From positions 7,874,001 to 7,938,000 of the forward strand of contig NC_133121.1 in assembly GCF_033568475.1 (NCBI RefSeq): DNA of 64,000 nt, given 5' to 3'. The DNA comes from Henckelia pumila. Lineage: Eukaryota > Streptophyta > Magnoliopsida > Lamiales > Gesneriaceae. The notes below the pieces were generated by a model. The model searched no databases. It was not told where the DNA came from and saw nothing but the letters and a program-made list of their open reading frames with translations. Shown here piece by piece: positions 49,811 to 50,690 of the stretch. A program made the position numbers and the translations under genes. Numbering within the stretch: the stretch's first letter is position 1; every line of letters begins with the position of its first letter.

Positions 49811-49872
49811 CTCTTGAACATGCTTGTCATGATCTTTGGGTTTCACAAACTCCGTCAATCCAAATTTCCTTG
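49811..49872 (-). pseudogene. Alcohol dehydrogenase exon fragment (downstream part)
   Basis: A 62-base exon on the minus strand: acceptor TTGACAG, then (A)RKFGLTEFVKPKDHDKHVQE, donor GTTAAT. The (K/R)KFG-TEFV-PKDHDK-VQE wording is characteristic of plant ADH and belongs downstream of the exon ending CGISTG. It lies 3' of the TBL exons on the same strand, so ADH sequence brackets TBL sequence. Confidence 0.75.
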
Positions 49873-50070
49873 CTGTCAACAAGAACACAACAGTCATTTA
49901 AAAAAATGAATTTTATTTGGAATTTGATTACACTTATTTATATTTCAGTTAATATGTATTAGAATATTGAACATAAATTAATCGAAATTATGAACTTGTT
50001 TTAAATATCAATCAATAAATAAGTAAAACTGATTACAAGAATTATAAATAAAATAAAATAAAAGATATAC

Positions 50071-50245
50071 CTCCATCCTGAAAACTGTTAAAGATCCATT
50101 CTTGATCAAGCTCTTCCTCCCCTGAGCCGCCGCAGATTGAACAAAGCAGATCATGGATTCCCATTGGTTCCGATTCAAAGAATCCCCAACGAACATCATC
50201 CTATTGTTCCTGACCACTTTCTCAAGTAATAATCTTGGCTTAAAC
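50071..50245 (-). pseudogene. TBL exon with GDS motif (segment B)
   Basis: 175 bases, acceptor TGAAG, donor GTATAT. Reads FKPRLLLEKVVRNNRMMFVG then DSLNRNQWESMICFVQS and GRKSLIKNGSLTVFRME. The GDS box with RNQWES is the catalytic signature of TBL/PMR5 O-acetyltransferases. The phases of this exon and of 50330-50530 match (AA/G gives Lys before Phe). The later DxxH-containing exons are absent. Confidence 0.88.
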
Positions 50246-50329
50246 CTTCATTAAATTAAATTAAAAAAAATAAATATGAATGAAAAAAATAAATCAACTG
50301 ATCAAAGAAAAATATATAATGAAATTTAC

Positions 50330-50530
50330 TTGGGCAAATTGCAATCTCTGGGCTGCCATCTCCAGTTCTGGTAAAGAGAATTCTTCCTTCCATTTCTCAT
50401 GCAAGCTACTTGTGCTGTTTGAAACTCGCATTCTTCCTCTTTGTACAGTGGGTGAGAAACATTGTCGAAAACCCAATTTCCCGTTAATAAATTGAGGTGG
50501 GATTTCGACTTCTTCTTCTTTGATCTTCCT
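50330..50530 (-). pseudogene. TBL exon, PMR5N part (segment B)
   Basis: [20 protein letters not shown], then [13 protein letters not shown] and a donor. Relative to copy A, seven bases including the first PMR5N cysteine codon (ECD) are missing, so the frame shifts ahead of LLTGNW. This puts the exon by chance in frame with the ADH exon upstream, giving one long ORF (50326-50916). Confidence 0.85.
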
Positions 50531-50538
50531 CTTTGTAC

Positions 50539-50690
50539 CTGTTGATATCCCACAGGTAAGAACACAATTTTATCCAGAGGCGCCGCAGGATTTCTCTTGG
50601 CGACACAACCAACATGCACAACTGTATATTTGCTGAACGTTGATGTTCCAACAAAATGATATATCGGTTGCCCGTTTTTGGAAAGCCTTC
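50539..50690 (-). pseudogene. Alcohol dehydrogenase exon fragment (upstream part, segment B)
   Basis: [39 protein letters not shown], then one base is lost and the frame of the CGIST end shifts. The exon still ends ACAG/GTAC, the normal ADH exon boundary after CGISTG. Followed on the minus strand within about 20 bases by the TBL exon. Confidence 0.85.

Follow-up and report, generated by a model that had tools for sequence, protein, structure and literature searches.

An ADH–TBL exon chimera in Henckelia pumila as the probable decayed cargo of a Pack-CACTA transposon

The soybean CACTA element Tgm-Express1 (Zabala and Vodkin 2007, PMC1947982) carries pieces of several unrelated host genes, exons and introns included, and elements of Henckelia pumila likewise carry such fragments. 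Chimeric RNAs are described for Tgm-Express1 (PMC1947982), whereas the Henckelia chimera is known from DNA alone. In Henckelia one fragment lies within another, and copies with and without the inner piece exist; we liken these elements to Tgm-Express1 in their cargo. The Tpn1 family of Ipomoea nil (Kawasaki and Nitasaka 2004, cited via PMC8195511) consists of CACTA elements with shared subterminal regions and differing host gene fragments inside. Plant and cargo are different there, and we liken the two families in structure. Arabidopsis Pack-CACTA elements (Catoni et al. 2019, cited via PMC8903248 and PMC13317346) likewise have CACTACAA ends and host DNA from more than one place. The route proposed for them is local tandem insertion, whereas in Henckelia distant source genes and microhomology at the joints suggest template copying. 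Microhomology between a TIR transposon and copied host DNA is likewise a feature of animal Pack-TIR elements, for which gap-filling and FoSTeST models have been put forward (PMC8277862); those elements are animal, whereas the Henckelia case is a plant CACTA with serial, nested capture.

The authors of the Pack-TIR models regard their applicability to plant Pack-MULEs as worth exploring (PMC8277862), and a 2026 review treats the way in which plant DNA transposons collect unlinked gene pieces as unsettled (PMC13317346). In the collection searched, which is not the whole literature, no paper on plant Pack-TYPE elements with microhomology was found. The Henckelia chimera belongs to the Pack-CACTA kind, known already from Tgm-Express and Tpn1, and is very probably the decayed cargo of such a transposon, built stepwise.

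Parts of the chimera and its tandem copy

The window, that is the whole stretch of DNA analysed, comprises 64,000 nucleotides of contig NC_133121.1 (positions 7,874,001 to 7,938,000). An earlier note had placed two TBL exons between two ADH exons on one strand, with working-looking splice sites and matching phase inside TBL. Matches in PDB, in Pfam and to ESKIMO1 confirm this order at 49811–50690 (copy A), where the minus strand reads ADH exon 4 3′ part, TBL exon 1 3′ part, TBL intron 1, TBL exon 2, part of TBL intron 2, ADH intron end and ADH exon 7. Both families, alcohol dehydrogenase (ADH) and TBL, are matched, and all parts lie on the minus strand. The features of copy A and its left neighbour are:

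50689–50740, minus: remnant of the CACTA element 5′ region, aligned to window 3565–3627
50539–50688, minus: ADH exon 4, 3′ part, ending ISTG, frameshifted; 92% to the intact-looking ADH gene L009:4124–4276; PDB match to plant class-P ADH residues 128–174, E 1.3e-15
50524–50538, minus: 15-nt insert between ADH and TBL, with an exact match in TBL farther downstream
50330–50523, minus: TBL exon 1, 3′ part, with an 8-nt deletion; Pfam PMR5N domain, E 2.1e-20; relative L010
50246–50329, minus: TBL intron 1, GT-AG, from alignment to L010
50071–50245, minus: TBL exon 2 (GDS block of PC-Esterase); Pfam PC-Esterase, E 3.1e-15
49897–50070, minus: TBL intron 2, 5′ part, from alignment to L010 and L011
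49873–49896, minus: end of ADH intron 6 with acceptor; TBL/ADH joint in a T-rich stretch at its start
49811–49872, minus: ADH exon 7 (ARKFGLTEFVKPKDHDKHVQE), 95% to L009; PDB match to plant class-3 ADH residues 234–255, E 2.3e-5 over 22 residues
49755–49810, minus: ADH intron 7, 5′ part, from sequence comparison
49711–49754, minus: start of a peroxiredoxin exon with the preceding intron end, truncated; common to L015
49430–49598, plus: decayed inositol-polyphosphate 5-phosphatase-like fragment, by reading; fuller in L012 and at 14086–14768

The two TBL pieces joined match ESKIMO1 (E 1e-56), which points to a gene of the ESKIMO1/TBL29 type, a kind that acts in cell-wall acetylation. For the short second ADH part (49811–49872) there is no Pfam match. 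The ADH fragment starts in mid-exon, at ~50688, and TBL replaces ADH exons 5 and 6. Usable splice sites are read at the chimera exons, namely CCCAA/GTAAAT, TGAAG/GTTTAAG, ATGGAG/GTATAT, TTGACAG/CAAGG and CAAGAG/GTTAAT, and TBL exon 1 splices to exon 2 in frame. The ADH exons bear the numbers that we take to be those of maize Adh1; their order itself was read from L009.

A second copy (B) has the following parts:

3565–3833, minus: CACTA 5′ region fused to ADH exon 4; at least 41 genome matches, with a CACTACA end ≤400 bp upstream in 23 of 30 loci
3411–3564, minus: ADH exon 4, 3′ part, 91% to L009
3147–3410, minus: 15-nt insert, part of TBL exon 1 and the beginning of TBL intron 1, interrupted by an LTR retrotransposon at 3146; remainder outside the window (L012)

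Copy B (3147–3627) is 91.7% identical to copy A over 481 columns and stops at 3146; the interrupting LTR retrotransposon is Copia-like by reading of the frame at 176–2410. Its remainder, with TBL exon 2 and ADH exon 7, lies to the left of the window in L012 and is 90% identical to copy A over 814 columns. Both stretches that flank the interruption contain A-runs, and copy A is continuous there. Apart from gaps, 3147–14095 and 49125–60207 are collinear, sequence to the left of copy A is repeated in parts of 14086–14896, and 49125–49268 is repeated at 60379–60522. The repeat unit is ~11 kb in length and runs from 5-phosphatase-like fragment through chimera to X8 genes, then again, and its left copy continues in L012. 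With collinear blocks that go on at 60379 and in L012, the two copies appear to descend from a single CACTA relic by tandem duplication of this unit rather than by transposition. An 11-kb transposon spanning the whole unit was rejected, because the unit repeats as a 5-phosphatase-like fragment/chimera/X8 series and no CACTA end is found in the window. A third chimera copy, expected after 14896, was not found within the window.

Among the X8-domain frames of the unit, 6255–6656 is above and 58560–58976 below the Pfam cut-off. The 5-phosphatase-like fragment, assigned by reading, occurs in three decay states (L012:4300–6560, window 14086–14768 and 49430–49598); one piece in L012 has a sub-threshold Pfam match to Exo_endo_phos2, and another piece has no Pfam match and a best PDB E of 0.15. 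Within this fragment in L012, a stretch resembles by eye the start of a tau-class glutathione transferase (Pfam: no match). Several LTR-retrotransposon-like elements lie between the two ~11-kb units. A short one (16005–17935) has direct repeats of 0.6 kb that are 97.5% identical, and the repeats of a longer one (39511–47322) measure 1.4 kb (97.2%). A gypsy-like element has direct end repeats at 24194–24782 and 33670–34258 that are 99.2% identical, and an array of 45–46-bp spaced repeats at 27754–28437 lies inside it (by reading). Unit A has at its end two small inserts, hairpin-like and with inverted ends (59960–60125 and 60213–60350), which by eye are absent from the matching place near 14012–14095.

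The CACTA carrier family

The sequence preceding ADH in copy B is a repeat (40 of 82 candidates were scored for the at least 41 genome matches). Exact CACTACAA or CACTACAG, the CACTACA motif, was counted upstream of the fused 5′ region in the 30 fetched loci; those without an exact end are L017 (copy B itself), L018 (variant AACTACAAC), L027, L034, L043, L045 and L046. CACTA-type TIRs, that is inverted ends of the CACTACAA type, with matching 3-bp flanks are present in all five elements for which both ends were found:

L011, C1:17055807–17060799, 4993 bp (5.0 kb), duplication TAC
L016, C1:174757747–174763522, 5776 bp (5.8 kb), duplication ATG
L052, duplication CAA, with two candidate 3′ ends of which one fits
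L053, 6174 bp, duplication CAA
L054, 5381 bp, duplication AAA

The 5′ end of L011 is AACTACAAC, and its TAC duplication requires a changed first base of CACTACAAC; when the end is parsed as CAACTACAAC there is no duplication. Because complete relatives have TIRs and 3-bp duplications, the carrier of the ADH-fused sequence is a CACTA family, not a Pack-MULE or a Helitron. L011 and L016 hold cargo between TIRs with duplications, a shortened ADH-TBL-ADH in the former and ADH in the latter, which makes them Pack-CACTA elements. Subterminal repeats (ACAACGCTTTTT and AAAAAGCGTTGT) lie in both orientations near both ends of L011 and L016, by reading and with self-matches computed. In the fetched stretches of L055, L056, L057 and L059, no exact TIR was found. 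Pairings in L023, L024, L025, L029 and L042 use TTGTAGTG, which is taken as internal because nearly identical bases follow it in all five loci; flanks agree in one of the five (L024), and these loci were rejected as complete 1.3-kb elements.

No TIR was found beside copy A or B, and across the window CACTACAACAAAAA-like ends do not exceed the number expected by chance (one match with two mismatches versus 1.32 expected); A and B are taken as truncated derivatives of a CACTA element. For PF02992 (TNP2/Transposase_21), scoring of 150 among 570 candidates in the genome gave at least 150 matches, in frames of up to 868 aa, none of them linked to this CACTA subfamily. Inside one complete relative lies a homeodomain fragment (L052:7530–8246, E 1.9e-6), hence the ADH line is not alone in carrying gene fragments. 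A stretch at L011:5390–8499, common to L011, L014 and L016, is outside the L011 element.

Source-type genes, joints and order of captures

A search of the plant's own genome with the chimera found 16 places, including the chimera itself. Parental loci, for which the earlier note had proposed a search, have intact-looking counterparts among them. L009 (C4:138.17 Mb) matches the ADH parts at 92% and 95%, and its ADH coding exons, including exons 5 and 6 absent from the chimera, are in order and open (by reading, with only some splice sites checked). The TBL part aligns with L010 (C4:221.04 Mb), introns included, at 82% over 694 columns; L010 is by reading an open TBL gene with PMR5N and PC-Esterase exons (Pfam). 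A 3-nt deletion relative to L010 is common to A, L011 and L014, so that the true TBL source may be a relative of L010, as far as the alignment of TBL exon 2 indicates (L012 row left out). At L014:4495–4875, TBL exon 2 with this deletion is part of a further composite, whose adjoining stretch we presume to be fibrillarin-like (EDGTQTEYRVWN). A peroxiredoxin-like locus lies at C1:84.59 Mb. The compared genes have diverged from the fragments by 3–18%, depending on the stretch, and joints were therefore read on relatives.

Three of the four joints have 7–9 bp of shared sequence. How often chance gives such lengths was estimated from 200,000 draws in which positions up to ~500 bp from the joint (~400 bp for L015) were paired at random. 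The CACTA/ADH joint shares 7 bp, with a random-pairing frequency of 0.0007–0.0008 (L019, L020, L034 and L023; L022, without the search string, was left out). The TBL/ADH intron joint shares 9 bp (7e-5), which were read from L010 and L015, the chimera itself having changed there. At the ADH/peroxiredoxin joint 7 bp are shared (0.0007), with L058 as comparator; this locus is not established as an intact gene and is 96.6% identical to L015 over 177 bp. The ADH/TBL joint yielded no clean stretch of shared sequence. The 15-nt insert there matches downstream TBL at 15 of 15 positions (score 30); a gapped alignment to the upstream TBL sequence expected at this place scores 27. None of 2000 triplet shuffles reached 13 nt, and no 11-mer is repeated within the parent TBL exon. 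In copy B, the downstream twin of the insert differs at one end (14/15). A later deletion in L011 also left a repeat, with AAGTAAATTT flanking GCCC on both sides, by reading. These marks suggest template copying with switching during break repair, as modelled for animal Pack-TIRs (PMC8277862). Moreover, introns are kept, and RNA was therefore not the intermediate; the pieces were taken up as DNA.

The CACTA/ADH joint of copy B and L011 is also that of L016 and L015, neither of which contains TBL. ADH in L016 runs from exon 4 into exon 5 (L009 4125–4437), followed by other sequence, without exon 7. In L015, which has no visible TIR, ADH is unbroken from exon 4 to past exon 7 (L009 4126–4788), with ~76 bp missing, and is followed by a peroxiredoxin exon (AhpC-TSA, E 1.9e-5, just below the Pfam cut-off) whose first bases are also in copy A and L012. 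L011, A and B/L012 hold TBL, and the TBL/ADH joint is common to all three; L011 is the complete, shortened chimera: of ADH it retains only ~25 bp of exon 4 and the opening bases of exon 7, and the ADH/TBL joint is gone. Once exons 5 and 6 had been lost, a continuous ADH would have been hard to regain, and TBL therefore most likely arrived after ADH. In addition, B and L016 share a +1 in ADH exon 4, and A can be read as having the same +1 followed by a −2; hence ADH may have been disrupted before the arrival of TBL. However, the +1 lies in an A-run and could recur, L016 has an earlier −1 in the exon, and copy B is 88.5% identical to L016 versus 89.2% to L015, with no grouping of B and L016.

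Proposed history and alternatives

According to our model, a non-autonomous CACTA element would have taken up ADH from mid exon 4 to intron 7 together with the peroxiredoxin exon, in one orientation and as DNA. In one copy of the element, a TBL stretch (part of exon 1, intron 1, exon 2 and part of intron 2) would then have replaced ADH exons 5 and 6, with ADH exon 4 fused directly to TBL exon 1. The chimera would have moved with the element, giving rise to the shortened but complete L011. Another copy, its ends lost, would have come to lie in the X8-gene locus, and tandem duplication of this locus would have produced A and B. The joins may have formed by break repair that copied distant genes, with template switches at short shared sequences, and transposase was presumably supplied in trans.

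The earlier note had also claimed a shared ORF of ADH and TBL exon 1, which might suggest a working fusion gene. Copy A indeed has an ORF at 50326–50928, one frame of 200 aa that covers ADH and TBL exon 1; its splice sites are intact, and TBL exons 1 and 2 are in frame. But this frame is single because several indels cancel (−1, −3 and −8 nt), with ~25 residues between the parts in the wrong frame, and is best seen as a decay product. At 3150–3650 (B), only about the last dozen ADH residues are in frame with TBL, the ADH part proper having a stop and a +1 shift, so that the claim holds for copy A in this restricted sense and for B over those few residues. The fusion is lost in L011, either enzyme is present as fragments only, and the splice from TBL exon 2 into ADH exon 7 is out of frame and reaches a stop after five codons (QGNLD-stop). 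Substitutions by codon position (2, 2, 6 for A versus L009; 2, 1, 2 and 3, 2, 5 for A versus L010) are too few for a selection test. A working fusion gene is thus very hard to credit: copies A and B look like decayed pseudogenes, no function is supported for the chimera, and from its reading frames it probably has none.

The other alternatives concern the origin of the joints. Pack-CACTA formation by local hopping, in which two nearby CACTA copies lose their facing ends and move as a hybrid with the DNA between them, has been proposed for Arabidopsis Pack-CACTA and for Pack-TYPE elements generally (PMC8903248; PMC13317346). We consider it unlikely here: the nearest ADH, TBL and peroxiredoxin-like genes are far apart, on C4 and C1, no CACTA sequence was seen between the three kinds of pieces in the copies read, and TBL sits inside ADH with its ends at short shared sequences. 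Pack-MULEs have MULE TIRs and 8–9 bp duplications, and Helitrons have a 5′ TC and a 3′ hairpin-CTRR, with neither TIRs nor duplication. Capture and shuffling by a DNA transposon, as the earlier note had supposed, agrees with the CACTA fusion and with the intact-looking L009 and L010; its choice of a Helitron or Pack-MULE as carrier does not agree with the CACTA TIRs and 3-bp duplications of complete relatives. Both are known carriers of gene fragments (PMC1947982), but with five two-ended CACTA relatives, including L011 and L016 with the same ADH capture, such a carrier is highly improbable, and a Pack-MULE was rejected on these ends and duplications. A putative Helitron end at 49720 (CTAG at 49720–49723, then T) was also rejected, as L015 shows the shared stretch to be the start of the peroxiredoxin exon. 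An ADH relic invaded in place by TBL was rejected too, because the ADH fragment starts within an exon and is joined there to CACTA sequence. The region is rich in repeats, which might favour an assembly artefact joining unrelated genes, but three loci on two chromosomes, A, L012 (B) and L011, have the TBL/ADH joint and differ independently of one another, which leaves an artefact with next to no probability.

The stepwise Pack-CACTA history has a wider reading, to which we give an even chance: plant CACTA elements may gain distant gene fragments serially by copying repair, with switches at 7–9 bp, and may even overwrite earlier cargo. If true, serial copying capture would be a route of the kind that the 2026 review terms 'alternative, yet undiscovered' (PMC13317346). 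Unusual features are the nested arrangement and the persistence of copies both with and without the TBL insertion, and these make the capture route testable. Source-type genes, L016 and L015 without TBL, L011 with TBL and the joints are all in one genome, and the copying model can therefore be tested base by base. The Henckelia elements also offer a clear case in which exons of one gene were exchanged for those of another within a mobile element.
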